31,146 nt of DNA from a virus, in IMG/VR virus record IMGVR_UViG_3300035698_016129, positions 1 through 31,146 of that record. One strand, given 5' to 3'. This document shows, one piece after another, positions 5,985 to 31,146 of the stretch (its first letter is position 1; the number at the start of each line of letters is the position of its first letter). Position numbers and translations under genes: made by a program. The notes under the pieces are model-generated. The model searched no databases, was not told the origin of the DNA, and saw only the letters and a list, made by a program, of their open reading frames with translations.

Positions 5985-6237
5985 GTTCGTCACACCAACA
6001 GTTGCCGCACAGTCTATTTTTGTGTTACTTGGCAGTTCTGCAGAACACAGAATTTGTAATGGAATGGTTCTCCAGGCACCTACAACTAATACCGGTACGA
6101 TTAATTTTGGAGATGAAGCTGTTCAGCCTTTTACACTTATTGCTGGGGCCAATGGCCCAGTCAATGACTCAAACCCGAAAAATGTTCATGTTCGTGGTAA
6201 TGGTACAGACACTGTTGCAATAGGTATCTTGCATTGA
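5974..6237 (+). CDS. small beta-rich protein, 87 aa, possible capsid accessory
   Basis: Starts at ATG 5974 inside the end of the preceding gene, with GAGGG (5960-5964) upstream, and overlaps the TTG start of the terminase gene. The product (VAAQSIFVLLGSSAEHRICNG... ending VHVRGNGTDTVAIGILH) looks like a compact beta-sandwich with Asn/Gly turns. Such small beta proteins near terminase genes are often decoration or head-associated proteins, but no family was identified. Confidence 0.55.
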   Translation: MKCKFVTPTVAAQSIFVLLGSSAEHRICNGMVLQAPTTNTGTINFGDEAVQPFTLIAGANGPVNDSNPKNVHVRGNGTDTVAIGILH

Positions 6238-7927: not shown

Positions 7928-9640
7928 ATGGCCGAACAGCAAATAGAAGTACAAAATATTACTCACCCAGAATATGATGCTATGGATACACAGTGGTCCA
8001 AGTTTCGGTCTGCATATACTGGTGGCCGTAATTTTATTGATGAGTACCTCGTTACATTTTCACAGCGGGAAGATCCAGTTGATTTCTCGAATCGCAAGGC
8101 TATTACTTATTGTCCTGCACATGCAAAATCTGCAGTGAACGAGATCAAGAATGCAATTTATCAACGCATGGCAGACATTTCAAGAGAAGGTGGACCCTCA
8201 TCGTATAACGAGGCAATGAAAGGGCAGGATCGCGGCATCGACCTGAAGAAGAATACAATGTCAAGCTTCATTGGTCGCCGCATCCTGCCCGAATTACTAA
8301 CACTAGGACGTGTTGGTGTGTTTGTCGACAAGCCAGAACAACCTAAAGATGCAACAAAGGCTGATACACTTGGCAGTCGTCCTTATCTTTATGTGTATGC
8401 TGCAGAAGATATTAGAGATTGGGCCTATGACGCTGAGGAACGATTATCTTCTTTATTATTACGTGACCACATTGATAAAGTGGATGAGGAAACGGGGCTT
8501 GTGACGGATACAGTAGAAGCATTTCGCCTGCTTAAAGTGAATAATGAAATAGTCAATATTACATTTTATGATAAAGATGGCAAGGAAACAGATTCGTCTA
8601 CTTTAGACTTAACTGAAATACCATTTGTTTTATTCGAGATTTCACAATCTTTATTGACGGATGTTGCTGATTATCAGATTGCGCTATTAAATTTAGAATC
8701 AGCCGATCTCAATTATGCACTAAAGGCAAATTACCCATTTTATACTGAACAATATGATTTGCGAGCTGATGCCACTAAATTTATGCGCCGATCGGCTGAA
8801 AAAGAGACAGAAGCTGATGCTGGTGAAGCCTTAGAAGCTAAGATTGCAAAAGAAAATGAGATTGCAACAGGCGTATCGAAAGGTAGAAGGTATCCACGCG
8901 ACTTAGAGCGTCCTGCTTTCATTCATCCTTCTCCTGAGCCACTTAGAGTGAGCATGGAGAAAGAAGAAAAAATCAAAAGCGATATTCGCAGATTAGTTAA
9001 TCTTGCTGTAGTAGAATTAGAGCCACGTACTGCTTCTGCAGAGAGTAAGCAATTTGATGAACATACTTTAGAGGCTGGATTATCTTATATTGGACTAGAA
9101 TTAGCCTATGGTGAAAATAAAATTGGTCGGTTCTGGGCTATGTATGAAGGCGGTACAGAGCCAACTATCCTGTACCCTACAAATTATAGTCTTAAATCAG
9201 ATAATGAACGACGGGTAGAAGCAAAAGAAAATCTTGAGCTTATGACTGTTATCCCATCAACCACATATCAGAAAGCAATAGCGAAAGAAGTTGCCAGGAT
9301 TATGGTTGGTACGGTTCTGTCTAAGGAAGATTTTGAAAGGGTAATAGGTGAAATAGAAGCAGCAGCAGTTGTAAATACTGATTCTGAAACTTTGCGCGAA
9401 GATCATGAATCAGGATTCGTAAGTACAGAACTAGCTAGTACACTACGTGGTTATCCGGCAGGCGAGGTTGAAAAGGCCAAACTCGATCATGCTGAAAGAG
9501 CTGGTCGCATTGCTGCTGCTCAGGGTGAGGTAGGTGGACAGGCACGCGGTGTAGATGATATTGATATAAGCAACCAATCAGGTGAGAAGGAAAAGGAACT
9601 TGCGGCTTCAAAAGATTTAGAGGCCCCTAATCAGAGGTAA
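7928..9640 (+). CDS. portal protein
   Basis: A 570-residue product directly after the large terminase, starting at ATG 7928 behind GAGGT. The N-terminal region has a portal-like layout: YxGGxxFIDEYL, then ILPELLTLGRVGVFVDKP (about residues 120-140), and the stem/crown region with IPFVLFEISQSLLTDVADYQ and LNLESADLNYALKANYPFYTEQ. A Glu/Lys/Ala-rich C-terminal tail follows. It forms the ring at one capsid vertex through which DNA enters and leaves. Assignment rests on these segments and on gene position. Confidence 0.88.
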   Translation: MAEQQIEVQNITHPEYDAMDTQWSKFRSAYTGGRNFIDEYLVTFSQREDPVDFSNRKAITYCPAHAKSAVNEIKNAIYQRMADISREGGPSSYNEAMKGQDRGIDLKKNTMSSFIGRRILPELLTLGRVGVFVDKPEQPKDATKADTLGSRPYLYVYAAEDIRDWAYDAEERLSSLLLRDHIDKVDEETGLVTDTVEAFRLLKVNNEIVNITFYDKDGKETDSSTLDLTEIPFVLFEISQSLLTDVADYQIALLNLESADLNYALKANYPFYTEQYDLRADATKFMRRSAEKETEADAGEALEAKIAKENEIATGVSKGRRYPRDLERPAFIHPSPEPLRVSMEKEEKIKSDIRRLVNLAVVELEPRTASAESKQFDEHTLEAGLSYIGLELAYGENKIGRFWAMYEGGTEPTILYPTNYSLKSDNERRVEAKENLELMTVIPSTTYQKAIAKEVARIMVGTVLSKEDFERVIGEIEAAAVVNTDSETLREDHESGFVSTELASTLRGYPAGEVEKAKLDHAERAGRIAAAQGEVGGQARGVDDIDISNQSGEKEKELAASKDLEAPNQR

Positions 9641-10258: not shown

Positions 10259-11059
10259 ATGTTCAAATATGTGATTTTGTTACTGGCTGTTTGCGCGGTT
10301 GCTTTTGCTGGCCTTGATGAGACTGTGCTTACAGAGAAAAGTGCCGCATATACAACTGCTAGTGCCGCAGTGAAGACCGCGCAAAATGAGATCAAGACTG
10401 TACGCATGGAAAAGGTCGTTATTCTTCGTGCCGCATTACGCGATTTGATTGATACTGCTGCTGTTCAGGTTAAAACGATCAAGTCAGTTGATGAGTTAGA
10501 CGCTGCTTATGCTTCTCTTACAAAGATCATTGGCGATCAAGATTTGGCCGCTAAAGTAATGTATCGTGCCAATGTTCCGTATGCCGTAAAGGTGCAAAAG
10601 ATGGAGCAATGGATTGGCGACAGACTCCGCGCAAATAAGGTGATAGATCGTGGGTTGATCTACTTGGCGCTAAGGATGGGAATTTATGGTAAGGAAAGTG
10701 TCAAGGGTATTGCGCGAAGAATATATCTAAGTTACCATAAGAGGGTCGGTGGCTCCACTGTTATATGGAAGTTGCTCAAAAACTTTGAGGGTGAGGAGCG
10801 TCTTGAAGTTATGCGAGCCATGTACGATAACTTTAAGACTTTCGCGGATTGCAAGGCTGCTTTTTTACCCATGAAGAAGTCTAAGTCTTACGTGCAAACA
10901 GTTGTTGAGTGCTATGTTAGGAAGCCTGCCGATGCTAATGAGGCTTTTGAGCCTATTAAGAAAACGCTTATAATCGAGTTGACTGGAGAGAATGCAGCAG
11001 AAGCACAGGCGGTGCTTACGAAGTTGTTCACCATCATGGATGCACTGGCCACTAGGTAA
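10259..11059 (+). CDS. exported protein, first of a paralogous pair
   Basis: A 266-residue product with a textbook Sec signal peptide: MFKYVILLLAVCAVAFA, then GLDE, with cleavage expected after AFA. The mature part is helical. A conserved segment matches its neighbour: RLEV-(M/L)-(R/A)AM(Y/F)D-(N/G)FKTF-(A/G)DCK, then SYVQT(V/I)V-x-CY, then (T/S)LI/ASEL-(T/M)GENAAEAQ at the C terminus. Two cysteines are conserved in the pair, which fits a disulphide outside the cytoplasm. Location inside a head-tail operon is unusual. No family recognised. AAAAGGAG lies upstream of ATG 10259. Confidence 0.75.
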   Translation: MFKYVILLLAVCAVAFAGLDETVLTEKSAAYTTASAAVKTAQNEIKTVRMEKVVILRAALRDLIDTAAVQVKTIKSVDELDAAYASLTKIIGDQDLAAKVMYRANVPYAVKVQKMEQWIGDRLRANKVIDRGLIYLALRMGIYGKESVKGIARRIYLSYHKRVGGSTVIWKLLKNFEGEERLEVMRAMYDNFKTFADCKAAFLPMKKSKSYVQTVVECYVRKPADANEAFEPIKKTLIIELTGENAAEAQAVLTKLFTIMDALATR

Positions 11060-11069
11060 GGAAGTAAAA

Positions 11070-11837
11070 ATGCTCAAGTACGTGATTTTGTTGCTGGCTA
11101 TTTGTGGAGTTGCTTTTGCTGATCTCGATCTGGATGTACTGACTACCAAGAAGGCCACGCTGGATAGTGCGATTAAGGTATATGATGCAAGCACGAACGC
11201 AAAGGATAAGGAAGCGGCACATGCCGTAAGACGCAAGGCCCATTTAGATTTTGTTGGATATATTCGAGCAGAAGCAAAGTTAATTGGTACTGCGGAAAAG
11301 TTGGTAGCTGCTCGAAAAGCAATTCTAAGCGTGTGGGATAATGAGGAAAGGGTAGCGTTATATTTACTTGGTCCTTCTACCGTGTCTATGGAGATTAAGA
11401 TTAAGAAATTTGATGAGTGGCTTGGCGCAAAGGTCAAGAACGGCACATTTACTGACCCCTCTGTGATGTATTGGGGTATGAAAAAGGGTATTTTCTCAAA
11501 GAAGGGTGTTCTGGGTGTAATTAGGAAGCTGTATAATCAATACCCAAATAATCCGGCAGCGCGGACAAAGATTGTGCGTGCTGTATCTGCTAGATTTGGG
11601 GGCAAAGATCGCTTAGAAGTTTTGGCGGCTATGTTTGATGGGTTTAAGACTTTTGGGGATTGTAAGACCGCTTTTCAGACGGTGCGCGGAATGAATTCTT
11701 ATGTTCAAACGATTGTTCGTTGCTATGCGCCAATTAGAAAGACGCTCGCCAGTGAACTAATGGGCGAGAATGCGGCGGAAGCACAGATATTACTTACGCA
11801 GCTTTTAACTGCGATTGACGCGTTAGCCGCTAGGTAA
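11070..11837 (+). CDS. exported protein, second of a paralogous pair
   Basis: A 255-residue product starting at ATG 11070 with AAGGAAG upstream; an in-frame upstream extension into the preceding gene is rejected because the signal peptide starts at this ATG. It begins MLKYVILLLAICGVAFA, almost the same signal peptide as its neighbour, and shares the FKTFGDCKTAF and SYVQTIVRCY segments and the GENAAEAQ C terminus. The DNA around the signal sequence is also clearly similar, so the pair comes from a tandem duplication. Function unknown; a periplasmic or cell-surface role such as superinfection exclusion or host-envelope modification is a guess. Confidence 0.75.
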   Translation: MLKYVILLLAICGVAFADLDLDVLTTKKATLDSAIKVYDASTNAKDKEAAHAVRRKAHLDFVGYIRAEAKLIGTAEKLVAARKAILSVWDNEERVALYLLGPSTVSMEIKIKKFDEWLGAKVKNGTFTDPSVMYWGMKKGIFSKKGVLGVIRKLYNQYPNNPAARTKIVRAVSARFGGKDRLEVLAAMFDGFKTFGDCKTAFQTVRGMNSYVQTIVRCYAPIRKTLASELMGENAAEAQILLTQLLTAIDALAAR

Positions 11838-14816: not shown

Positions 14817-15623
14817 ATGTACGGTATTTTTAGTAGTCCGTGGAAACTTGTCTATGAAGATGATCCTGATGCCGTTAAGGCGGCTGCTGATGCTAAGGTG
14901 GCTGCTGATGCTGAGGTGGTTGCTGCCGGGGGCGTAACAAAGACTTTTACGCAAGATGAGGTTAATTCGTTCTTGGCCGCGGACAAGCGCAAGAGTAAGG
15001 AAGCTATGGATAAGGCTCTGACAGAGGTTCAGGCGCTACAGAAGCGTGCAGGATTAACTAAGACAGAGCGGGACGAACTAGAGCGGCGTGTACAGGATAT
15101 GCAATCACAGTTGTTAACTAAGGAAGAACTTGCTGAACAAGAGAAGGACAAATTAAAAAAGGCGCATGACGAAGCTATTACAAATATTACTGCGGAACGG
15201 GATGATTGGGCTAAGCGTTTTACAGTTTCCACAATCACACGTGAGATATTAGATGCGGCTGTTGAGCACACTGCTTACTCTCCCAAGCAACTTGTGCCAA
15301 TTTTACAGCCGGTTACTCGGTTGACCGAGGTGACGGATGAGGAGGGCAAACCTAATGGGTCTTTTGAGGTAAAAGTTGCTTTCCTCGACAAAGACACAAA
15401 GGGTAAGCCCGTTACTCTTGATCTTTCAGTCTCTGAGGCGGTTAAGAGGATGAGTGAGATGGACGATTACCTGAATCTTTTCAAGGATGAGGGTACTGGT
15501 GGTGTAGGGCGTATGTCCCGACAAGGAACTGGTGGGAGCAAGAATATGGTTGAATTGGCCAAAGATCCCGCCAAATATCGAGCGGAACGAAGGAAGCAAA
15601 TGGCAGCTTCTGGTGCAAAATAG
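14817..15623 (+). CDS. scaffolding protein
   Basis: A 268-residue product starting at ATG 14817 with AGGAGAAG upstream. It has an Ala/Asp-rich N-terminal third, then a long coiled coil (about residues 50-135: KRKSKEAMDKALTEVQAL..., TKEELAEQEKDKLKKAHDEA), and a C-terminal domain ending in a basic tail (AKYRAERRKQMAASG), the usual capsid-binding end. Directly before the major capsid gene. The N terminus carries PWKLVYEDDP, related to PWTPIYDDP at the start of the capsid protein. Confidence 0.8.
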   Translation: MYGIFSSPWKLVYEDDPDAVKAAADAKVAADAEVVAAGGVTKTFTQDEVNSFLAADKRKSKEAMDKALTEVQALQKRAGLTKTERDELERRVQDMQSQLLTKEELAEQEKDKLKKAHDEAITNITAERDDWAKRFTVSTITREILDAAVEHTAYSPKQLVPILQPVTRLTEVTDEEGKPNGSFEVKVAFLDKDTKGKPVTLDLSVSEAVKRMSEMDDYLNLFKDEGTGGVGRMSRQGTGGSKNMVELAKDPAKYRAERRKQMAASGAK

Positions 15624-15633
15624 GAGTGATTCA

Positions 15634-17031
15634 ATGAGGTTAACCGTAGGAAATAGGCCGTGGACACCTATTTACGATGATCCCGCTAACACCCTTGATC
15701 CTTTTTCGCCTGAGGTTTGGGCGCAAGAGTCATTGATGGTGTTAGAGGAAAACATGATCATTGCGAATATGGTCCACCGCGATTTCTCAACTCAGATCGC
15801 TAAGTTTGGTGACACGGTTAATACCCGTCGTCCAGCAGAGTTTGAAATGAAGCGTAAGGTGGATCGGGATGAGGTGACTGTGCAGGCCGCATCGGCAACG
15901 AATGTTGCTGTTGTTCTTAATATGTGGCCCCATGTGTCCTTCATTATTGGCGACGGTGAGGAAAGTCTCGGATTCGTGAATCTGCGTGACACGTATTTGG
16001 TTCCGGCACTTGTCGCAATGGCTCGTGGTATTGATCAGATGCTCTTATATCAGGTCTATGCTTTTCTCGCCAACCAAATTGGTGCTTTGGGCACAGATTT
16101 GACTAAGAGTAGCATTACTGCGTTACGTGCGAAGATGAACACTAACAAGGTCCCCCAGCCGGGCCGTAATGTAATTATTACGCCCAATTCTGAGGCATCT
16201 CTCTTGAATGTTAGTGAACTCATTAATGCCAATACGCGTGGTGATGATGGATCGGCGCAGAGAGAGGCTCACCTTGGCCGAATGCTTGGTTTTGACTGGT
16301 ATATGTGTCAGAATACTCCGAGTATTCCGGCTGGTAGCACAACGGAAGCGGCTGCTGTCAATAATGGCGATGGTTATGCCATTGGTAGCACGTCGATTGC
16401 CATTGATGGTACCAGTGAAGATTTGACAGCAGGATCATGGTGCACAATCGCCGGGGATATGACGCCGCAGAAGATTACTTCGGCTACGGGTTCTCCCACT
16501 ACGTTGATTGTGATCAGCCCTGGTCTCAAGACTGCTGTTGTGGATGATGCTGTTGTTACAGTGTACACACCGGGCGCCATTGATCTTACTGCCGGTTATG
16601 CTGCCGGTTACAGTAAGGCAATGGTTGTTGATGGTTTCGATATTGCACCTAATGATGGGCAGCTTGCCAGTATTGGCACTGGTAACTACCTTGCATATAA
16701 CTATGGTGCAATGCCCACTCCTACTACTACTGAGCTTCTGGTTTCTCATGCTCTTGAGGCATTAGTTGCTAATGATGCTGTAGTGGGTCTTGGTCCGGCT
16801 GGTGAGTACAATCTGGCGTTCAACGGTAATGCGATTTCGTTCGTCTCTCGTCCGTTAGCGGCTCCGGCGCCTGGAACTGGTGCTCTTTCGTATGTTGCCC
16901 AGTATCGAGGCTTAGGTATTCGTGTCACGATTACCTATGAGGGTCGTGGACAGGGTCACCTTGTTACTGTTGACTTGCTTTGTGGTACTAAGGTTCTTGA
17001 TACTGACCTTGGCGCCGTTTTGCTTGCGTAG
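15634..17031 (+). CDS. major capsid protein, P22 coat-like
   Basis: A 465-residue product starting at ATG 15634 behind AGGAG; the longer in-frame start would overlap most of the scaffold tail. P22-type coat features: FSPEVWAQESLMVLEENMIIANMVHRDF, then FGDTVNTRRPAEF near the N terminus, VNLRDTYLVPALVAMARGIDQMLLYQVY (about 115-145), VPQPGRNVIITPNSEASLL, and an inserted beta region (GSWCTIAGDMTPQKIT...). The C terminus returns to the HK97-like core (YRGLGIRVTITYEG). It forms the icosahedral head. A strong hairpin follows the gene. Confidence 0.88.
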   Translation: MRLTVGNRPWTPIYDDPANTLDPFSPEVWAQESLMVLEENMIIANMVHRDFSTQIAKFGDTVNTRRPAEFEMKRKVDRDEVTVQAASATNVAVVLNMWPHVSFIIGDGEESLGFVNLRDTYLVPALVAMARGIDQMLLYQVYAFLANQIGALGTDLTKSSITALRAKMNTNKVPQPGRNVIITPNSEASLLNVSELINANTRGDDGSAQREAHLGRMLGFDWYMCQNTPSIPAGSTTEAAAVNNGDGYAIGSTSIAIDGTSEDLTAGSWCTIAGDMTPQKITSATGSPTTLIVISPGLKTAVVDDAVVTVYTPGAIDLTAGYAAGYSKAMVVDGFDIAPNDGQLASIGTGNYLAYNYGAMPTPTTTELLVSHALEALVANDAVVGLGPAGEYNLAFNGNAISFVSRPLAAPAPGTGALSYVAQYRGLGIRVTITYEGRGQGHLVTVDLLCGTKVLDTDLGAVLLA

Positions 17032-19956: not shown

Positions 19957-21624
19957 ATGTCAGAAGATCTTAACCTAACAGGTAATGCGACTAGTCTACT
20001 TGATGCACTTACTAAAGCAACAACTGCTTGGAATACTTACCAAAAAGCTGTTGTAACTGCATCTAATGCCCAGGCTGCATCGCTTAAAAAATCAACCGAA
20101 TTAATTAGAGAATTGAATCGCGCTGCTACAGCTTCTAATAAGCGTCTTGCTACTCTAAATACTACTAGTAGGGCAATTGATCGTAATACGAAAGCTACAC
20201 GCAAATATGCTCTTGAGACACGTAGTCTTAGTAAGCAATCAAGAGACCATTTAAGGCATATTAAATCTGGAATTGGTGTGAGTAATAGACGTTTTAATAT
20301 TATGATTAAATTGCTTAATGCCATTAATAAAAGTATACGAGGACTTGGTCGACTTAATCAAGTAATACAACATCAAACTGTTGTAGCAGGGGTTAATAAT
20401 AAAACTTTACTCAGAACTATTAGTCTACAAGCTAGGCACAATCGCTCTATCTTAAGAACAGTACAATTATTAACAAGGCAAAATGCTGCGCTTAGGGCGG
20501 CTAATGCGGTAACAAATAAAGCAGGGAAAAAAACTAAAAACCTAGCATTATCCTGGGGCAGTATGACAAAACTGCTTGCCACACAAATTATCCACAGAGC
20601 CATGACGGCTCTTGTAAGTGGATTAACTGAAGCAGTAAAGCAAGCAATAAAATTAGAGATGCGTATCGCAGAAATTCAAACAATTGCACAAGACCAACCT
20701 CTCGGGTTTGATACTTGGATTACAGAACTACGCAAATTATCCGATGCTTGGGGTCTTGATATTGTTGATCAGGCAGAGGGTGCTTATCAAACACTATCAA
20801 ATCAAGTTGCAAAGGGGGCAGATGCACTTGAATTCATGTCTAAAGCTAATCAATTTGCAGTAACTACACTATCTAGGGTTGAAGATGCCGTTAATCTTGG
20901 TACTGCAGCTATTAATTCCTTTAGATTATCTGCAAAAGATGCAGAAGAAATATTTGGAATATTCTTTAAGACCATTGAGTTAGGTCGTGTACGTTCTGCC
21001 GATATGGCAAACCATTTTGGGCGTGTAGGTGTGCCTGCTGCTCAACTAGGGGCAACACTTAAAGAAACTGCTGCCGCAATTGCTACCATGACAATTCGCG
21101 GTATCCGATTCCAAGAATCATCAACTTTCTTACGCAATATGCTGATAAAATTATTGCGTCCCACAGATAAGATGCGAGAGCTTTTTGCTAAGATTGGTGT
21201 TGAATCGGGCACGGCTGCAATACAAGCATACGGATTTAGTGGGACACTTGCAAAAGTAGAGGAACACGCTCATGGTAGTTCAGAAATATTAGGTGAACTA
21301 TACGGGCGCATTAGAGCCATTACTGGTGGTATGTTATTTTCTGGTCAGGGATTACGCGACTATGATGACGCAATAAGGAAAATGACTGTAGCCCAAGAAA
21401 CTTATGCTAAAGGTACACAACTCACACTCGAAAATGCTGGTAAGCAGTTCGAGATACTGTCATTCAAAATTAAAAATGCCTTTATTGTGGGGTGGGGCGA
21501 AAACGTTATAAAAGTTATAAATATGGCTAATAAGTTTGTGGATCTTTCTGCAATGGCCAAGGCTTTTGCTCAGGTAATAAGTATACTTGTTTTACCCGCT
21601 CTTGCCTTAATGGGCGGCCTTTGA
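19957..21624 (+). CDS. tape measure protein, N-terminal part (interrupted by TGA)
   Basis: A 555-residue N-terminal part of the tail-length ruler. The N-terminal third is a helical, Ser/Thr/Arg-rich coil (ASNAQAASLKKSTELIRELN...). From about residue 220 it has the TP901-type core: ELRKLSDAWGLDIVDQAEGAYQTLSNQ, EFMSKANQFAVTTLSRVEDAVNLG and AQLGATLKETAAAIATMT. It ends in a hydrophobic segment (VISILVLPALALMGGL) at a TGA (21622-21624). The next codons continue the same frame and the same hydrophobic region, so the two parts look like one protein of about 1466 residues cut by one stop. Confidence 0.8.
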   Translation: MSEDLNLTGNATSLLDALTKATTAWNTYQKAVVTASNAQAASLKKSTELIRELNRAATASNKRLATLNTTSRAIDRNTKATRKYALETRSLSKQSRDHLRHIKSGIGVSNRRFNIMIKLLNAINKSIRGLGRLNQVIQHQTVVAGVNNKTLLRTISLQARHNRSILRTVQLLTRQNAALRAANAVTNKAGKKTKNLALSWGSMTKLLATQIIHRAMTALVSGLTEAVKQAIKLEMRIAEIQTIAQDQPLGFDTWITELRKLSDAWGLDIVDQAEGAYQTLSNQVAKGADALEFMSKANQFAVTTLSRVEDAVNLGTAAINSFRLSAKDAEEIFGIFFKTIELGRVRSADMANHFGRVGVPAAQLGATLKETAAAIATMTIRGIRFQESSTFLRNMLIKLLRPTDKMRELFAKIGVESGTAAIQAYGFSGTLAKVEEHAHGSSEILGELYGRIRAITGGMLFSGQGLRDYDDAIRKMTVAQETYAKGTQLTLENAGKQFEILSFKIKNAFIVGWGENVIKVINMANKFVDLSAMAKAFAQVISILVLPALALMGGL

Positions 21625-24357
21625 GTGGGGATTGCAGTCATTAATCCTTTTATTGGGATCCCAGTAGTTTTAACAGCAATTGGTACGGCTTTAGTTTTGC
21701 TAAATAATCGTCTTGCAAAAACAAGAGAAGAATTTTTAAAAACCTTAACACTAAAAGGGGTCGGTAAAGCGGCTGATTCTTTATCATTGATTGAAACTAG
21801 ATTCAAAGATATGTCAAAGGTTCTTAATGCGTTAGCAAAAAAGAATGCATCAGCTATTGCCGAGCTCAGTACGACACTGCGTAAAATGTCAATAGAAGGC
21901 GCCGATTATCTTGCATCTGCAATAGCATCAAGTAAAAAACAATATGAAGCTGTAATTACGAGCACTAAAAATGCTGTTAAAAATCTCAAAAAACTTATAA
22001 AGGAAACAGAAAAAGATATTAAAACATTAGCAACTTCGATAAATACTGTTGATACTTTAATCAAGTCGCTTACAAGACAAAAAAGTAAAACACTATTTGA
22101 GTGGTCACTTGATGATAAAACAATACAGCAACAATTTAACCTAATTGAGGGTAGAATTGCAGAATTACGTAATGCTGCTGAGGAAGTGCAATTAAAGATT
22201 GTAGCAGAAAAAGCAAAAGATAAGCCATCACAAGAACTGCTTGAGGAATCAATAGCTACTTATAATCGATTATCCGAAGATGCAGATAAATTATCCTCGA
22301 AACAAATACAAACGTATAAAAAATTAAAGCAAGATATTACAGAACTTGGTAAAACGCAAAGTAAAAATGATGAAAACAGGCTAAGTGAATTAAATAAATA
22401 TGCTGATCAGATGCGGAAACTACAGCAGCAAGAACTAGAAGGGAAAAAAAGCCAAGTTGAGGCAACTGGCGATTATCACAAGGCTAGAAAAAAGTTGCAT
22501 CTTAGTGCCGATGAAGATTATCGGAAACAATTTAAACGCATTTTGGCTGCTGAGAAAGCAGAAGGTAAAGCATGGCGTAGTAGCAAAAATAATTATAATG
22601 AAATAAGTAGATTACAAAGTAGAGCAGAACAAGAGCGAGCTAAAGTACCCTCAAACCTGCTTAACGAGATGCGAAAATATGAAACACAACGTATTGCCGC
22701 ATTAAAAAAGAGTAAGGGAGCAGCGGAAGAACAAAGTGCAGTACAGAAACAAATGAATAAGTTGCGTGTTGAGCACAATAAAAAGATGGCTGAGTATACT
22801 ATACAAATGGAAAAAAATGAAAAAATTATTGAATCGTTTGAGACTGTTACTGCTAGTATTGTTGAATTGCAAGAAAAATGGACAGCACAAATTGAGGCCA
22901 GAATAGAAGCAAATAAAAAGTATATGGAAGATGCTGTAGATGGCCAAAAAGAATTGGAAATACTCAGAACCGCGCAGCTTAAAAAAGAAATAAAGATGCG
23001 TATGCAGTTATTTGATTTGGAACAAGCATATACAACATACCATAAATTTAACTTAGCAGAAATACAAAAATTACAAGATCCGGCGGCAATCAAACAGGCA
23101 TTAAGTGAATTTCTGGCTGCTACTAACAAGATTACAGAAATTAGAAGTGACTTAGGTTTTGACCCCGAATCACAAACCAAAGAACAAATTAGTGACTATT
23201 TAAAACTTACAGCTATTGTTAAAAGGATAAAGGAATTACAACTTGCAGGTGTTGACAAGCACCAAGAAGAAATCAGAAAATTAGTTAATGCTGCCAATAT
23301 ACTAAATACCGATGCCTCTAAAAACATAGATGAAAATAATGAAGCAACAAAAATAAAAATGGCTGCACTTATTGCAGAAGAAATAGTAACCAAACAAATT
23401 ATCCAAACGCGTATAAAGGGCTCACAAGAAGAATTGGATAAAGCCAAAAAGAGAATTGAATTAGAGGCAGAGAATGTAAAAAGAATATATGTGGAACGGC
23501 AAACAAAAGAGAATGAAATACTTAAAAAGCTCAATGAGTCTGTAGCCCATGCAAAAAGTAAAATATGGAATGACCTTACTTCTGGTGGCCAAACCAGGCT
23601 CGAAGAAGCAGGGAATGCGTTTGTAGAAAGTGGTACAGTAGAAAATTATGAGCGGCTATTGAGAATTATACGCGAATTAAAAGCAAATAAAGACACCCTT
23701 AGTCCAACTAGAAAAGATTTTCTAGATCAATTTTTCGTGGCCGCCAGATATGAAAGTGCACTTAAAGGCTTAGAACATGATGCTGTCACAACAGCCTTGC
23801 GCGAATACAATAAAGCACAAGCCGAAACTAAAAAAATATATGAGGAATACCTTAAAGTTGCAGCTAGGGTGGCCGCGATAAAAGATCCCGTAACAGCAAG
23901 CACTAGTGTTGCAGCTAAGAATCTAGAACTTGTTAAAACCAGCGTTAAAGAAATAGTTGATCAGTTTGATAGATTAGCGATTGCTACTAGTAAAATATCG
24001 GCTGATCTGGCAGCCCAAACTAAAAATATTGCTGACTCAAGGTTGACTCCAATCGTTAAGGCATCTGGTGGCTATATAACAGCAGCGGAAGGGAAGCACG
24101 TTAGTGGATATGGTCGTGACACAGTACCCGCTATGCTGACGCCAGGTGAATTTGTAATGAATCCTAGAGCAACAGGACGATTCTATTCTCAACTTGTTGC
24201 TATGAATAGTGGTACATCAGCATTTGGTAGTGGTGGTGATGTAAATGTTGGGGATGTAAATGTTAATCTAAATAGTGTAACTCCTGATTACGATGCAAGA
24301 GCATTTGGCAAGGCCCTTGTTCGCGAGGTTCGTAGAGGAAGGTTAAAATTGACATGA
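21625..24357 (+). CDS. tape measure protein, C-terminal part
   Basis: Same frame as the upstream part, starting with GTG directly after its TGA. It begins VGIAVINPFIGIPVVLTAIGT, the second half of a hydrophobic tape-measure segment, followed by about 700 residues of Lys/Glu/Gln-rich helical coil. The C terminus is typical: KASGGYITAAEGKHVSGYGRDTVPAMLTPGEFVMNPRATGRF, then VNVGDVNVNLNSV. If translated alone it needs the GTG, which has only a weak upstream ribosome-binding sequence. The alternatives are readthrough, a natural nonsense mutation or a sequencing error. Confidence 0.75.
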   Translation: MGIAVINPFIGIPVVLTAIGTALVLLNNRLAKTREEFLKTLTLKGVGKAADSLSLIETRFKDMSKVLNALAKKNASAIAELSTTLRKMSIEGADYLASAIASSKKQYEAVITSTKNAVKNLKKLIKETEKDIKTLATSINTVDTLIKSLTRQKSKTLFEWSLDDKTIQQQFNLIEGRIAELRNAAEEVQLKIVAEKAKDKPSQELLEESIATYNRLSEDADKLSSKQIQTYKKLKQDITELGKTQSKNDENRLSELNKYADQMRKLQQQELEGKKSQVEATGDYHKARKKLHLSADEDYRKQFKRILAAEKAEGKAWRSSKNNYNEISRLQSRAEQERAKVPSNLLNEMRKYETQRIAALKKSKGAAEEQSAVQKQMNKLRVEHNKKMAEYTIQMEKNEKIIESFETVTASIVELQEKWTAQIEARIEANKKYMEDAVDGQKELEILRTAQLKKEIKMRMQLFDLEQAYTTYHKFNLAEIQKLQDPAAIKQALSEFLAATNKITEIRSDLGFDPESQTKEQISDYLKLTAIVKRIKELQLAGVDKHQEEIRKLVNAANILNTDASKNIDENNEATKIKMAALIAEEIVTKQIIQTRIKGSQEELDKAKKRIELEAENVKRIYVERQTKENEILKKLNESVAHAKSKIWNDLTSGGQTRLEEAGNAFVESGTVENYERLLRIIRELKANKDTLSPTRKDFLDQFFVAARYESALKGLEHDAVTTALREYNKAQAETKKIYEEYLKVAARVAAIKDPVTASTSVAAKNLELVKTSVKEIVDQFDRLAIATSKISADLAAQTKNIADSRLTPIVKASGGYITAAEGKHVSGYGRDTVPAMLTPGEFVMNPRATGRFYSQLVAMNSGTSAFGSGGDVNVGDVNVNLNSVTPDYDARAFGKALVREVRRGRLKLT

Positions 24358-24731: not shown

Positions 24732-25096
24732 GCCTAAAACTTGATTATCCGCCTACCATACCATCTGATACTGTAACATTAAATAGTCCAGAGTTAGGTG
24801 ACTCTAAGCAGTATGATCAAAGAATTATCTTTATGCGTAGTATGAATGGGGCATTATCTAGTTACAAAAGAACGCCATCAAAGAGAACGTTTCTTTGGGG
24901 AATTAATAATATTACTGATGCTACTATTATAACCTTACGAGCTTTCTTTATAACTTCAAATGGTAAAGAAATCCGCGTAACAGATCACAATGGCAACAAA
25001 TGGGATGGATATGTATTAAATAATCCGTTTGAAGATATGGACCATGGGCTCTGTAAAAATAGTACAACCATACAATTTGTAGGTGAGTTAGTATAG
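24728..25096 (+). CDS. distal tail protein, second of a paralogous pair
   Basis: A 122-residue product, ATG 24728 overlapping the previous TGA. Similar layout to its neighbour: PPTIPSDTVTLNSPELGDSKQY, then EIRVTDHNGNKWDGYVLNN. Probably a copy from tandem duplication that has diverged; the two may form a hetero-oligomeric ring at the tail tip. The next gene starts at the GTG in TAGTG. Confidence 0.6.
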   Translation: MSLKLDYPPTIPSDTVTLNSPELGDSKQYDQRIIFMRSMNGALSSYKRTPSKRTFLWGINNITDATIITLRAFFITSNGKEIRVTDHNGNKWDGYVLNNPFEDMDHGLCKNSTTIQFVGELV

Positions 25097-28000
25097 TGGT
25101 ACGAGAACTTACAGCTAATGCGGTAACAAAAGCTGCAACACAAAATGCTACTGAACCATTTATTGTTCTAAAAATAGAGTGGGGAAGTGGTACTAAATAC
25201 TATGGTGACAAAGATATAGTTGATTGGGGCGGGAGTCCAGTTGTTGGATCTGTAGTAGATGCAGGACAACTTGCTGCAGATATTAAAGAAGTTAATTCAT
25301 CTGAAATAAGTTCTTTTAGTGTAAAATTATCAGACACAGACGAAACCTTAAAAACTATTGTTGATGTGGATGTTATTGAACACACAGTGGCTGTTGTATA
25401 TTTGCAACATCAATCCCTCACAGCAACGGATAAAATTGAATTACTTTATGGGCGTATTTCTGGTGATATTATTTGGAGTGAAGGGGATCGATCGCTCGTG
25501 TTTGAAGTTGAGACAACCCTTGATTCCAATGAAGTTGGCTATGCCTCAGCCGAAGGGGATATGGAAGATTTAAGCGATGATGCAGAAGATGTAGTTTGGC
25601 CACTGTGTTTTGGAACTGTTTTACGTGTTCCAGCAGTAAAAATATCGGCGCAAAAAACAGGGAAAACTATTAATTGGGTATATGGTTCAGGACACGATGT
25701 TTCATTACTCCCTATTGTATTTGATGATGGAACAAATTTTACCCAGGCACCAATCATTATTACACTTGAAGCTATCTATTACGTAAATACTGGACTCAAT
25801 AAATATGATCAAACGGTAAAGATACCAATTAAGATTCTTTATAGCGGGGCAGTAACCAATAATATTTTTATATATTCAAAAGAAAATGTAGAGTATCATA
25901 CAGATATAGAGTGTGCTGCGCGAGACATAGCAGATGATGATTATCTTGATTCAAGTGTCTGTTGGTTAGCTGATAGTGATATTGATTTAAAATATAAATT
26001 CGTTAAAGTAACCGGGCCTTTAAATGAAGTAGTTATTAATTGGTGTACGTCGCAAGAAGGAACTAAATGTACATTTAAATCCCCATTTATTGGGACAATG
26101 GCAAACATTGTTTTAAATGATGGTGACACTATAGATGCTGTTGCTGGATTCCCGAAAGCAGCATGGGGCGGAACTTTTGAGATTGGCGCTGACTCATACC
26201 ACCCCAATATGCCAGGGGTATGGACACCTGTAAATAAAGGCAACATAGTTGCCCCAGATTGGTGGTACCAGCTTGCAAATGACTCATATGCAATAACTCT
26301 TGGTGCTACATGGACCCAACTACAGGAATACGATGATTTATATGTTTGTAATCTTATTGAAAGTACAGAAATACATGAAGTAGTGGCGCATAGAGATTAT
26401 TGTGGTGAAGATGTTCTTGCTCAAGTACCCAGTAGCTACTATACTGCTACTTTAGCAAAATCAGTTTCTGGGCAAACTGCAACAACTATTGAATTTACAA
26501 AACCACTATCAGAATATGTATGTGACAAATGGTCAGACCCAATTTATGTATCATTGACATCATCAGAGGGGCCTAATGTTGCCGATGTTATTGATTATAT
26601 TATTACAACATATACTGATCTCAGTGTAGATGCTACATCTTTTGCTAGTGTGCATACGAAGGTAGAAAACTATCCAGTAGGTTTTGCATTATTTGATCTT
26701 AAAGATGCAATGGATTTGTGCGAAACTATTGCTTGGCAAGCACGCTGTGCACTTATTATCCGCAATGGTGTGATCTATATTAAATATTTATCGGAAGATC
26801 CCACTTCCGATTATACATTAACAACAGATGATGTATTAGAAAAAACACTTGGGTTACGTTTTACGCCAATAGAAGATATTGTTACCAAACTTATTGGCAA
26901 ATGGAAACGTAGTTATTCAGACGAGAAAGATGCTAAAGGTGACATTAAAGACGAAAAAGAGAACACGTATAAAAACAATGTTTCTACTTATGGTTTGCAT
27001 GAAGAAGAATATGATTTCTTTATCTACAATATTGAGTCACTAGTACAACTGTCTTTAGCGTTTTGGGGCTATAGGTATTCTAATGTTTGGCGACAAGCTA
27101 AAGGTAGCACTAATCTTAGGACACTGTCATTAGAACCATTTGACTGCGTTACACAGAACCTATCTATTTTAAGCAGTAACACAATCAAAGGCATTTTACA
27201 ATCCCACCAACACGATACAGATGGGTCTAAAATAGATTTTAATTTGATTTTTGCATCAAAAGCCGGAGATGTAGATGGCAGTAATAATCCTTCAGAAGAT
27301 TTAGGTTACTTTGACGGTGATGGCCAGATCAATGGTAACTCGATGCCTGCTGATGTGGCTAATGGATTAGATGAAGTAGATTATACTGTGCCTTGTTGCG
27401 AAGAAGAAACTAATGAAGATAATTACGGGGATCGGGATCAAAAAGACGATGAAGAAGATTGGGCACCAGAAGATGCTGAAACTATTGCACCAACTATTGC
27501 ACCAACTATTGCACCAACGACGCCAGCACCCGGGACACCAACATCTTGGTATTGTTTGCAACACTCGACATGGGTTATAAGTGATTTATGCGACAAAACC
27601 TCAGAACCATACGAGGTGGAATATGTTTGCGTTGATAATTTATCGTTACCGGCATTAGATACTTGTATTGATTTAGGTGCCACAAGTGAAATATATGAAA
27701 CGGTACAAATATTTGATAATGAACTAGATTGTGAGGGTATTTGTGATAGAGAAAGATATTTTTGTGTTAAAAAAATAACATATACAAATGAAGTTGATTG
27801 CACTGGAGATACAACTATAGAGTATATTTGTTTTGCTAAGGCATATTTACCAGTAATAACTTATTGTCATGTATCAGATGATGGTATATCAAGTTTCAAA
27901 TATACTATAGAATCTATACATTATACTTCTGATGAGTGTGAACTTAATTGTAGCGGTGCGCCGCCATCACCACCATTGGGAGAGTGGTTGTGCTTGAAGC

Positions 28001-29286
28001 ATGATGTATTTGATTCAGAAAGTGACTGTAATTATGGGGTTCTTTTTGGGTCACAATTAGAATGTTGGTGGACTGAAGATGTTGATTTGCCTGTTTTAGG
28101 TAGTTGTGAAACAGAGGGTGGCCAAGTACACAGATGGACACGAGTTAAAATGTACACAACCGAGGACCTATGTATAGCTGCTTGTGGGGATACAGATAAA
28201 ATTTATTGTGTGCAAACTGTATATTATACCAGTGATAATTTTGATATTATGGATATTACGGATAGTTCTATGGTTGATTGCTTTAGTGATTCTGAATTCA
28301 AGGCTATAGTATTAAATGTTGAATTAACGGTTGGTAGTTCCTATCAAAAATATTATTTACTTGGTGTATATGACAATATGCATGATTGTATGGTTTCATG
28401 CTATGTACAATATTATGTATGTCTCAGAGAAGATGTTTGGATTCCAAGTGGTTGTAGTGTAGCCCCTGCAAACTTTGCTGGTAAATCTTGCTGGGCCCTT
28501 GGTACTGAGCCAGCACAAGATACATGTATAGATGAAGGTGGTTGGAGTCATAGATATACTTTATTGGGCACCTATCCCAATGAATCTGAATGTGGTGTTA
28601 TTTGTCTTTATCTTAATTATATGTGTATTAAGGTAACTAATTCAGCCACAACAACTAATTGCTCATCCGATTTAATAGTCACATATGAATGTATGCACAC
28701 AGACGATGTACCAGAATTGAATTGGTGCACAGATAATGGTAATGGCACAAGTAGCTTGTATGAACCTATTGGGTTTTATTATTCGGAATCAAGCTGTACT
28801 GCTGCTTGCCTTGCACCAGTCACACAAGCACCAACGACGCCAGCACCTACACAAGCACCAACGACGCCAGCACCAACGACGCCAGCACCATCTTACAATG
28901 ATTGTAATGAGTGTAAATCTGTTCATGGTGATGGATTCCCCGATATTTTATATTACAAAATTGAGGGTTGTACTGATGGATGTGCTTGTCTAAATAATAC
29001 TAATGGTGTACTTGAGTGGACAGCTGAGTGTGACTGGTGGGACCCAATAATCGGTTATGAGTTTGAGATAACTGAGTATTGGTGGTACGCCAATACGTGG
29101 AAAACTGGCGGTGAATTTTGTGTTATACAATGGCGAGGTAGCATGGCTTCGCCATATTGCTTAACTGAATTACTTGATCCGGGTACTAGTACAAGTATAT
29201 ATGAATGCGTTACTCGTGATATGTCAATTTGTGTGAATCAACCCGTAAATGGATTTTCCATAGGAACTACTCCCTGGGGGCCTTAA
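25096..29286 (+). CDS. tail hub/fibre protein with Thr/Pro linkers and six Cys-rich repeats
   Basis: A 1396-residue product with GTG start overlapping the previous TAG. Residues 1 to about 700 form a tail-hub-like body: ADIKEVNSSEISSFSVKLSD, KIELLYGRISGDIIWSEGD, a YTLTTDDVLEKTLGLRFTP segment and DTDGSKIDFNLIFASK. After an acidic region comes a TIAP/TTPAP linker (796-817), six cysteine-rich repeats of about 65-75 residues (818-1239), a second PTTPAP linker (1240-1265) and a final Cys/Trp-rich domain (1266-1396). About 44 cysteines lie in the last 580 residues. It probably sits at the tail tip, with the Cys-rich region contacting the host. Confidence 0.8.
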   Translation: MVRELTANAVTKAATQNATEPFIVLKIEWGSGTKYYGDKDIVDWGGSPVVGSVVDAGQLAADIKEVNSSEISSFSVKLSDTDETLKTIVDVDVIEHTVAVVYLQHQSLTATDKIELLYGRISGDIIWSEGDRSLVFEVETTLDSNEVGYASAEGDMEDLSDDAEDVVWPLCFGTVLRVPAVKISAQKTGKTINWVYGSGHDVSLLPIVFDDGTNFTQAPIIITLEAIYYVNTGLNKYDQTVKIPIKILYSGAVTNNIFIYSKENVEYHTDIECAARDIADDDYLDSSVCWLADSDIDLKYKFVKVTGPLNEVVINWCTSQEGTKCTFKSPFIGTMANIVLNDGDTIDAVAGFPKAAWGGTFEIGADSYHPNMPGVWTPVNKGNIVAPDWWYQLANDSYAITLGATWTQLQEYDDLYVCNLIESTEIHEVVAHRDYCGEDVLAQVPSSYYTATLAKSVSGQTATTIEFTKPLSEYVCDKWSDPIYVSLTSSEGPNVADVIDYIITTYTDLSVDATSFASVHTKVENYPVGFALFDLKDAMDLCETIAWQARCALIIRNGVIYIKYLSEDPTSDYTLTTDDVLEKTLGLRFTPIEDIVTKLIGKWKRSYSDEKDAKGDIKDEKENTYKNNVSTYGLHEEEYDFFIYNIESLVQLSLAFWGYRYSNVWRQAKGSTNLRTLSLEPFDCVTQNLSILSSNTIKGILQSHQHDTDGSKIDFNLIFASKAGDVDGSNNPSEDLGYFDGDGQINGNSMPADVANGLDEVDYTVPCCEEETNEDNYGDRDQKDDEEDWAPEDAETIAPTIAPTIAPTTPAPGTPTSWYCLQHSTWVISDLCDKTSEPYEVEYVCVDNLSLPALDTCIDLGATSEIYETVQIFDNELDCEGICDRERYFCVKKITYTNEVDCTGDTTIEYICFAKAYLPVITYCHVSDDGISSFKYTIESIHYTSDECELNCSGAPPSPPLGEWLCLKHDVFDSESDCNYGVLFGSQLECWWTEDVDLPVLGSCETEGGQVHRWTRVKMYTTEDLCIAACGDTDKIYCVQTVYYTSDNFDIMDITDSSMVDCFSDSEFKAIVLNVELTVGSSYQKYYLLGVYDNMHDCMVSCYVQYYVCLREDVWIPSGCSVAPANFAGKSCWALGTEPAQDTCIDEGGWSHRYTLLGTYPNESECGVICLYLNYMCIKVTNSATTTNCSSDLIVTYECMHTDDVPELNWCTDNGNGTSSLYEPIGFYYSESSCTAACLAPVTQAPTTPAPTQAPTTPAPTTPAPSYNDCNECKSVHGDGFPDILYYKIEGCTDGCACLNNTNGVLEWTAECDWWDPIIGYEFEITEYWWYANTWKTGGEFCVIQWRGSMASPYCLTELLDPGTSTSIYECVTRDMSICVNQPVNGFSIGTTPWGP
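27481..27546 (+). repeat. Thr/Pro/Ala linker 1 (TIAP, TTPAP repeats)
   Basis: Codes for TIAP repeated three times followed by TTPAP and GTPTS (residues 796-817). DNA-level repeat of about 12 bp (ACTATTGCACCA). Mucin-like composition, with Thr next to Pro. It separates the hub-like body from the cysteine-rich repeats. Confidence 0.8.
27547..28812 (+). other. six tandem cysteine-rich repeats in the tail protein
   Basis: Residues 818-1239. Each unit begins Y/L-C-(V/L/I), then about 12-20 residues to a second C, an (E)(Y/C)xC, an LP-x-(L/I)-xx-C segment and ends in C-xxx-C. Units 1, 2, 3, 5 and 6 have six cysteines; unit 4 has four. Unit starts are WYCL, YFCV, WLCL, IYCV, YVCL and YMCI. Sequence identity between units is low outside cysteines and aromatics, so the duplication is old. 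No known domain was recognised. Confidence 0.7.
28813..28890 (+). repeat. Thr/Pro/Ala linker 2 (QAPTTPAP repeats)
   Basis: Codes for residues 1240-1265: PTTPAP three times, with QAP and PTQAP between. The 15-bp DNA unit GCACCAACGACGCCA is repeated. Composition and the PTTPAP motif resemble mammalian mucin glycosylation sequences. It links the last Cys-rich repeat to the C-terminal domain. Confidence 0.8.
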
Positions 29287-29688
29287 ATGCCTAAAGAAAA
29301 GAAACAGGAACTTAAAGATTTTGATCATCGGAAACAGCACGAAGAAAAATATGATGATAAAAATCTAAGGTGGAAAACCCAACCAAAAATACCAAAATGT
29401 TGGAGAGGTGATCACCAACAATGGCATATGCACAATGGGCACTACCAAAGTCAGTTATACTGCAATTATTGGGAAAAGTATATTAATCCAAGTGGTTTTA
29501 CATGTAAAATATGTGCTGCACAGATCTGGCCCACTATTGAAAATATGCGTACAAATATACTACCAAAACTGATTGAAGATGGTAAAATAGATCAAGCACA
29601 AGAATTATTAATTGGTGCCGTTAAAGTTAAAAGATTGACACAACAGGAAGGATTGACTCTTGCCCAAGAATTTTTCGGAACTGACTAA
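29287..29688 (+). CDS. small Cys/His-rich protein, 133 aa
   Basis: Starts at ATG 29287, directly after the previous TAA. The N terminus is very charged (PKEKKQELKDFDHRKQHEEK). The middle has Cys and His at regular distances: CWRGDHQQWHMHNGHY, YCNYWEKY, then FTCKICAAQIW, which would fit a small zinc-binding fold. The C terminus is helical. It overlaps the glycosyltransferase start. It may be a partner or substrate of that enzyme or a tail accessory; no family recognised. Confidence 0.6.
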   Translation: MPKEKKQELKDFDHRKQHEEKYDDKNLRWKTQPKIPKCWRGDHQQWHMHNGHYQSQLYCNYWEKYINPSGFTCKICAAQIWPTIENMRTNILPKLIEDGKIDQAQELLIGAVKVKRLTQQEGLTLAQEFFGTD

Positions 29689-31146
29689 GGCTATTGAAGA
29701 AGCAGCTATTGAAGAAGCAGCTATTGAAGAAGCAGGTAAAGTAATCCCCAAAAAAGTTGGGCAATTCCCTAGACACAAAAATAAGCATAAAGGCAAACGT
29801 AACCCAACAATCTTACAATGGCGTGAAGTAGATGGCGTCAAAGTCCGGATACTAGAATCATGCAAATACCGTAGTATTACCATAGATACTATTGATAAAA
29901 AATGTTGTGGTGGAACTATTAAGCGGGAAGAATTTTTTACTTGCACCCACTCAGAACCAAAAAAAGTATGTGGCAGCACTTGCCAAATATGCAAACTAGT
30001 TACTAATCCGCATACAATAGCATTACCAGCAATACACAGTCACTTGCCAGAAGTGGGCATATTAATTAATACTTATAATGAGGGGCCACGTATTAAGGCA
30101 ACTTGTGTGAATTTCCATGAACATTTAGAAAAACATAAAATTAGGCATGAAATCATTGTTGGTGATGATGGTACTACTGATGGGTGTTGCCAGAATCTAC
30201 CAGATTACGTTAAAGTTATTAGGCACGGTGAACCAAAAGGGTGCGGGAAAACAAAATTAGTAACTACGGCAGCCTCAATAGCTAATACTTATTTATGGGT
30301 TGATGCCCATCAAGCAGTTTTTACTGGTGAAATAGGCGAAATGGTTGAAGCTGCTATGTCCGAACAAATTATTATTTGCCCAAAGACAGGTAGACTAACG
30401 TTTGACATGGAAACTTGGGAACCTAAAAAACTTGAAGAAAAAGCTTTTATACCTAATCCAGTTGGATTATTGTTCCCACCCAATACTTATGTCTATGAAG
30501 GTGATGGCGCTGAGTATATAGATACCAACAATGTATTAATAGTCTCAGTTGGTCTATGTATGAGTCGTGCAACATATCAACGAGTTGGTGGTTGGAATAA
30601 CTATATGGCCTCACACGGGTCACAAGAACGCGGTATGGGTTTAAAGGCATTTATGTCCAATACCCCTATACGTGTGCTAATGAATGTTGAATTTGGGCAC
30701 GAGTTTTGTGAATATACCAATCCAAGTAGAAACAAAGAGACACGACCATATAAGCGCGCGCACGGTAAAAAAAATTGGAATCTTGGTCATGCTTTTATGG
30801 CTGTTTGTACACCAGAAACATTTGAGGATTACTTTAAGCCATTGTTGCAGGCCGATAAAACATTTGCTAATGCTATCCAAGCTAAAACATTAATTGAAGC
30901 AGTAAATGATCGTAGGTATTTTGCAAGACACTCTAAATGTATGACAGATCAAGATCTTATTAATTTAATGGAAACATTATTTGCGTACCAAAAAATGATT
31001 CCAGATCATAAGCAAAAAATGCTAGAATCAGCAGCCCAAAGAATCATAGCAGCCCAGGCACATGGAAGGTGCCTTGAACTTGGTACTGGTTCTGGTGCCG
31101 GTACAAAAGCCTTACTTACTGGTGCTTATAGTGTTGTTAGTATTGA
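29660..31146 (+). CDS. glycosyltransferase, GalNAc-transferase-like, fused to a methyltransferase (partial)
   Basis: A frame of at least 495 residues, open to the window end. It starts at TTG 29660 with AGGAAGGA seven bases upstream; the frame is closed before that. After a repeat of AIEEA (three times) comes a Cys-rich stretch (about 75-120: KKCCGGTIKREEFFTCTHS, VCGSTCQICK). From residue 132 there is a GT-A-type glycosyltransferase: GILINTYNEGPRIK, VGDDGTTDG (167-175), a DAH triad (215-217), IIICP, then VGGWNNYMASHGSQERG and GHEF (346-349). Order and spacing resemble polypeptide GalNAc-transferases, whose metal-binding motif is DxH. From about 460 a class I methyltransferase begins: LELGTGSGAGT (472-482). 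Substrate unproven. Confidence 0.75.
   Translation, partial: MPKNFSELTKAIEEAAIEEAAIEEAGKVIPKKVGQFPRHKNKHKGKRNPTILQWREVDGVKVRILESCKYRSITIDTIDKKCCGGTIKREEFFTCTHSEPKKVCGSTCQICKLVTNPHTIALPAIHSHLPEVGILINTYNEGPRIKATCVNFHEHLEKHKIRHEIIVGDDGTTDGCCQNLPDYVKVIRHGEPKGCGKTKLVTTAASIANTYLWVDAHQAVFTGEIGEMVEAAMSEQIIICPKTGRLTFDMETWEPKKLEEKAFIPNPVGLLFPPNTYVYEGDGAEYIDTNNVLIVSVGLCMSRATYQRVGGWNNYMASHGSQERGMGLKAFMSNTPIRVLMNVEFGHEFCEYTNPSRNKETRPYKRAHGKKNWNLGHAFMAVCTPETFEDYFKPLLQADKTFANAIQAKTLIEAVNDRRYFARHSKCMTDQDLINLMETLFAYQKMIPDHKQKMLESAAQRIIAAQAHGRCLELGTGSGAGTKALLTGAYSVVSI
29690..29734 (+). repeat. three tandem 15-bp units coding AIEEA
   Basis: GCTATTGAAGAAGCA three times in a row near the N terminus of the glycosyltransferase. 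It gives three AIEEA units, an acidic helix. It looks like recent slippage expansion and may vary between isolates. Confidence 0.9.

Follow-up and report, generated by a model that had tools for sequence, protein, structure and literature searches.

The window, the whole stretch of DNA that was analysed, is a 31,146-base IMG/VR virus record with a siphophage-type gene order across it (Table 1). The phage is uncultured and, judged from sequence, probably infects a planctomycete: two MAG contigs assigned to Pirellulales contain relatives of the tail protein, which makes a planctomycete host likely, not proven. A tblastn search of 50,697 phage records with the tail protein and the enzyme described below revealed no relative. 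The tape-measure gene is interrupted by one in-frame TGA (21622-21624) with a GTG in the same frame immediately after it. Since TAA, TAG and TGA all serve as stops in the other genes of the window a recoded genome is unlikely; possible explanations are a natural split, readthrough or an assembly error. Between the portal and coat genes (10259-11837) are two similar tandem ORFs of 266 and 281 residues that begin with a signal-peptide-like sequence (MxKYVILLLAxCxVAFA) and for which a Pfam search returned no match.

The product of the gene at 25096 is probably a tail-tip or hub-like protein based on its position after the tape-measure genes. Residues 1 to ~790 are conserved within a phage group, with homologues in 9 of 23 TerL-related records and at 76 viral loci; the C-terminal half is found in this phage only. 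That half contains a Cys-rich region built of repeats of ~65-70 residues with six Cys each, five of them full repeats by pattern, for which no match was found in the other loci compared. A reading of the sequence alone had placed a Thr/Pro/Ala linker on either side of this region, and both linkers were confirmed. Together they contain four TTPAP-type (T-P-x-P) sites, although they are short and only modestly Thr-rich, with 10 Thr in 50 residues, a value within the range of the controls. The TTPAPTT of linker 2 is the core of EA2 (PTTDSTTPAPTTK), a test peptide for GalNAc-T2 (PMC6202839).

Downstream of the tail gene is a small ORF with Cys motifs that overlaps the following enzyme gene by 29 bases and has a homologue (E 2e-10) at the equivalent position in the enzyme-bearing phage L243. 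The enzyme gene has a TTG start preceded by a good ribosome-binding-like sequence, and runs off the contig end so that the ORF is incomplete with 495 residues present. The product consists of an N-terminal Cys module followed by a glycosyltransferase domain with a DAH motif, the same layout as in L249, L377, L378, L380, L381 and L384, several of which encode enzymes extending to 820-890 residues. The Gly-rich end resembles the start of a methyltransferase by motif, with no Pfam match to it in the 495 residues present. A ricin-type lectin domain was likewise not matched in these 495 residues, which close with the Gly-rich motif instead; as the contig ends there, such a domain may lie further on. 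The enzyme contains no hydrophobic segment that could serve as a membrane anchor (maximum 19-residue Kyte-Doolittle value of 1.0); a type II membrane anchor, a feature of the secretory pathway, is not expected in a phage enzyme.

Table 1. Coordinates of genes and features in the window.
Feature	Position	Strand	Residues and remarks
gpA-type terminase	6234-7925		
Portal	7928-9640		
P22-like coat protein	15532-17031		
Tape measure	19957-24357		
Probable tail-tip/hub-like protein	25096-29286	+	1396 aa
Linker 1, TIAPTIAPTIAPTTPAP	27481-27531	+	aa 796-812; one T-P-x-P site
Cys-rich repeat region between linkers	27553-28809	+	aa 820-1238
Linker 2, TQAPTTPAPTQAPTTPAPTTPAP	28822-28890	+	aa 1243-1265; three T-P-x-P sites
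Small ORF	29287-29688	+	133 aa; Cys motifs (INPSGFTCKIC)
GT27-like glycosyltransferase ORF	29660-31146	+	TTG start; AGGAAGG upstream
N-terminal Cys module of enzyme	29861-29992	+	aa 68-111; CKYR..CCGG..C..C..C..C
GT-A catalytic domain	30041-30958	+	aa ~128-433
DxH metal motif (DAH)	30302-30310	+	D215-A-H217; aligns with DSH of GalNAc-T2
C-terminal His motif (GHEF)	30695-30706	+	aa 346-349 (H347); aligns with GHVF of GalNAc-T2
Possible SAM-methyltransferase start (LELGTGSGAG)	31067-31146	+	GTGSGAG at aa 475; sequence only; cut by contig end

Relation of the enzyme to polypeptide GalNAc-transferases

Polypeptide GalNAc-transferases contain a DxH metal motif and glycosylate Thr or Ser in linkers of this type with a preference for Thr next to Pro. 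The sequence-only reading had recognized, two genes past the tail gene, a glycosyltransferase with motifs in the order of this family (GT27), an observation borne out here: DD is at residue 169 and IICP at residues 238-241, with DAH and GHEF as listed in Table 1. The order is beyond chance: neither the DxH nor the His of GHxF varies across 20 domains of the phage family (alignment A5) or across nine domains taken from Planctomycetota genomes and the window (alignment A3). In the WGGE-type block before the C-terminal His the window aligns HGSQE and most phages WG[FY]xE; the Gly and Glu are kept and the window is without the Trp. A published GT-A survey lists GT27 and GT60, both of which O-glycosylate Ser or Thr of polypeptides, as having DxH instead of DxD (PMC7185993).

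The window enzyme alone matched Pfam PF00535 (Glycos_transf_2) with an E value of 1.5e-7 and 32.0 bits against a gathering cut-off of 23.3, as did all 20 family members at E ≤ 0.01. Matches of the single sequence to the PDB were weak (E 0.15 for the top row, which was a polypeptide GalNAc-transferase). Genomes from the order to which a Pirellulales MAG belongs encode proteins of the GT2 type with D[AG]H, and with a five-sequence profile including these the fourteen best PDB matches were GalNAc-transferases (T4, 5e-33). Two viral profile scans identified 17 other phage contigs encoding the enzyme family. With a profile made of phage sequences only, the fifteen best PDB chains were again GalNAc-transferases (T2, E 1.1e-27 over ~230 positions), followed by chondroitin synthase at 67 bits versus 100 bits for GT27; generic GT2s aligned mostly over the N-terminal half. 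Against the profile of the other phages the window protein scored 145 bits (E 1.7e-42), in a match that took in the Cys module. A DNA pattern search for GDDGxxDGxC returned noise only.

A single-sequence AF2 model of the glycosyltransferase had a pLDDT of 31 and was replaced with a model based on the 20-sequence phage alignment A5, in which the core exceeded 90 over most of model residues 80-180 (mean 73.7). The best 50 matches of this model in a Foldseek search of the PDB were all GalNAc-transferases, and VIA-align superposed it on GalNAc-T2 with a Z score of 22.7 over 253 residues at 3.5 Å. Thus, by profile, Foldseek and VIA-align the best structural match was to polypeptide GalNAc-transferases and not to a DNA-modifying or unrelated enzyme. 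Computation shows a phage family of GT27-like enzymes with these motifs and this predicted fold, although the window enzyme is not filed as GT27 since the lectin domain and anchor are absent from the 495 residues present and its activity is a prediction; the GT-A fold itself leaves donor and acceptor unfixed.

In L245 and L253 the DxH domain occurs twice in tandem in one protein, and in L253 the pair lies behind a radical-SAM-like domain. Among relatives of the tail protein, a small Cys-module gene adjoins, or is fused with, genes for glycosyltransferases or methyltransferases. A recurring small protein (..FAPxRGKPPAxPxGY....CxxR....CCG...C...C..C) is encoded beyond the tail gene, in many cases immediately ahead of a GT2 gene (L116 16473, L117 15542, L123 13530, L124 12253, L125 10651, L129 12366, L142 12789 and L160 10130), and is fused with methyltransferase-like or glycosyltransferase-like sequence in L120, L121, L122 and the window. 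It is possibly a targeting module shared by modification enzymes. In the relatives L050-L057 and L116-L129 the tail gene is often followed by a variable cassette of glycosyltransferase, methyltransferase, radical-SAM-like and GxGPSL-motif genes, the last DUF115-like by motif only.

Association of the enzyme family with Ser/Thr-rich linkers

A linker was defined as a stretch of 20 residues, of which 18 or more are S/T/P/A/G and 8 or more are S/T, in an ORF on the same strand no more than 9 kb upstream. By this rule 14 of the 17 enzyme-bearing phages other than the window have a linker, compared with none of 13 phages with a GT2 lacking DxH and one of 64 with the tail family of the window in which the enzyme was not found. 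The Fisher p values of 5e-6 and 5e-12, respectively, overstate independence since seven of the 17 phages belong to one tail family and many are from related or overlapping sample sets; the enzyme-bearing set, drawn from pattern scans, is also incomplete. The contrast was weaker (p 6e-4) against random viral loci, 19 of 57 of which contained a linker when all ORFs on both strands were counted, spurious GC-rich ORFs included. An earlier, looser metric had given 13/17 versus 5/14 and 21/64, with true tail genes lost to overlapping ORFs. The strict rule was set after that result and has a forking-path risk, partly offset by a separate measure of Thr density: at least 16 Thr in 50 residues were present in 13 of the 17 enzyme-bearing phages and in none of the 13 and 64 controls. 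Relatives of the tail protein reached through TerL or the tail N-terminus, and having neither linker nor enzyme, had been read as counter-evidence; they became a control once the profile had found enzyme-bearing phages. Overall, the comparisons show a statistical association, at the level of sequence, of the enzyme family with Ser/Thr-rich linkers encoded upstream.

As examples, L244 has the linker PTTTSTAAPTTTTTTPGP, L246 has APTTTTTVAPTTTTTTVAP and L251 has long arrays of TTTTTAAP; the linkers are found in tail proteins of several groups unrelated by BLAST, one with seven members. L246 has the tail type of the window (37% over 789 residues) together with the enzyme and a linker near the place of the first linker of the window. 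L243 fails the linker rule, yet its genes are arranged as in the window, with Thr-repeat tail proteins, then the homologue of the small ORF, then the enzyme. The two tail-region proteins of Thr-rich repeats in this phage (L243:4796-7514; for example TVTDEFTVT, 20 Thr in 50 residues) are of a different design. In L253, L387 and L384 the enzyme is present and the proteins encoded upstream are not Thr-dense.

The converse does not hold. No GT2 was found near the TTTTxAPTTTT linker at any of 80 loci, and no clear member of the enzyme family in 40 whole linker-bearing records, a search in which two positive controls were detected. Thr/Pro linkers are thus general spacers, to which the enzyme is seemingly added where linkers exist. 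The sequence-only proposal of phage-encoded mucin-type O-glycosylation of the tail is partly supported: it survived the two tests that it had named as able to refute it, by the match of the enzyme to GalNAc-transferases and by the co-occurrence of enzyme and linker, L246 with the window tail type included. A linker is insufficient to predict the enzyme.

Proposed function and comparison with known systems

The explanation we favour, with modest confidence, is that the product of the gene at 29660 is a soluble GT27-like enzyme that adds sugar to Thr or Ser of the tail protein encoded nearby, within its Thr/Pro linkers. The sugar, most likely GalNAc or another HexNAc, would be added in the cytoplasm of the host, either ahead of virion assembly or while it proceeds. 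The Cys-rich module at the N terminus may aid recognition of the tail protein, and the domain following the glycosyltransferase may lengthen the glycan or add methyl groups to it. Spacers between tail modules would be stiffer and better protected with such glycans, or the contact of the tip with the host surface would be altered. We infer the linker as acceptor, HexNAc as sugar, the purpose, targeting by the Cys module and methylation by the trailing domain. The broader proposal, that phages with several unrelated tail proteins perform a mucin-type-like O-glycosylation in which a cytosolic GT27-like enzyme with a Cys targeting module turns Thr/Pro fibre spacers into small mucins, is put forward more tentatively, as a possibility slightly short of even.

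An enzyme of GT27- or chondroitin-synthase-like fold could act instead on a polysaccharide or a host surface glycan, for receptor masking or superinfection exclusion, with the linkers plain spacers of elaborate tails. Consistent with this, chondroitin synthase is the next-best relative, 17 of the 20 family members match weakly the PHROG 'GtrB-like O-antigen conversion', linkers without the enzyme are common (0/80 loci and 0/40 records), and relatives that lack linkers have clusters of other glycosyltransferase, methyltransferase and DUF115-like genes behind the tail gene, indicating that such cassettes need no linker. However, the enzyme has no membrane segment of the GtrB-type kind, the DxH and a match along the full length point to GT27 rather than to chondroitin synthase, and linkers were found in 0 of 13 phages with ordinary GT2s, which together leave this explanation unlikely. 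We consider it more unlikely still that a virion protein is glycosylated elsewhere than at the linkers, for example at Thr or Ser in the Cys repeats or on another virion protein. Capsid and tail tube of mycobacteriophages are reported to be glycosylated by phage-encoded glycosyltransferases (Freeman 2023, as cited in PMC12363180 and PMC12619734), and the window, like the proteins upstream of the enzyme in L253, L387 and L384, is not Thr-dense; against this stand the strong association with linkers across several tail families and the Thr/Pro type of the known acceptor EA2. Modification of phage DNA bases by a second-tier sugar transfer is very improbable. Viral glycosyltransferases that hypermodify DNA are reported (Pyle 2024, as cited in PMC12619734), but the gene lies after tail genes, structural matches were to polypeptide GalNAc-transferases throughout, and no base-modifying gene was found among the window proteins scanned, in a genome of which the window is an incomplete part.

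Mucin-type O-glycosylation is generally regarded as eukaryotic. If the favoured reading of linker glycosylation is true, a GT27-like phage family travelling with Thr-rich tail spacers would be a prokaryotic counterpart, would bear on the origin of GT27, would explain the role of the spacers in at least some phages, and would be a source of soluble enzymes with which proteins could be O-glycosylated in the bacterial cytosol. The closest solved relatives of the enzyme are the animal enzymes that add the first sugar to mucins; together with the linkers upstream of it in 14 of the 17 other phage contigs, this suggests, and does not prove, that these tails are sugar-coated. The papers searched included none on GT27 in phages.

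The chromosomal DxH GT2s of Planctomycetota (for example L193, L195, L197 and L214) share with the window the signature D[AG]H ... GxED ... GHxF, and a profile of four such proteins matched the window with 84 bits; unlike the window enzyme they are mostly stand-alone genes without the Cys module. High-scoring members are rare (4/296) in the order to which the Pirellulales MAG belongs. In L197 (1486-3525) the glycosyltransferase is followed within one ORF by a stretch rich in Ser and Pro and by Ig-like sequence. Che8 gp108-gp110 are also phage-encoded glycosyltransferases, at least one reported to act on virion proteins, and gp108 reads as a GT2 with a methyltransferase-like half. None of the three showed homology to the phage profiles (best E 0.2), and unlike the window family they lack DxH, are located at the genome end and have reported targets in the capsid and the tail tube instead of in Thr/Pro linkers. 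The GalNAc-transferase domain of bacterial chondroitin synthase (GT2-CHS, K4CP) is the next-best full-length match (Z ~19, 67 bits), differing in its polysaccharide acceptor and in a match weaker than that to GT27. Cytosolic O-glycosylation has been obtained in E. coli with human GalNAc-T2 and an epimerase, with glycosylation of a mucin-10-derived protein in the cells and of EA2 by GalNAc-T2 in vitro (PMC6202839). With GT27 itself (GalNAc-T2 and Toxoplasma GalNAc-T3), for which the known acceptors are of the Thr/Pro type, the enzyme shares ~250 residues of GT-A fold (Z 20-23), the DxH, the C-terminal His, the Pro of the ICP strand, the acidic residue of the WGGE-like block and the order of the motifs. 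The sequence identity is 15-18%, and the window enzyme differs in having no lectin domain in the 495 residues present and no membrane anchor, and in the addition of an N-terminal Cys module and a possible methyltransferase.
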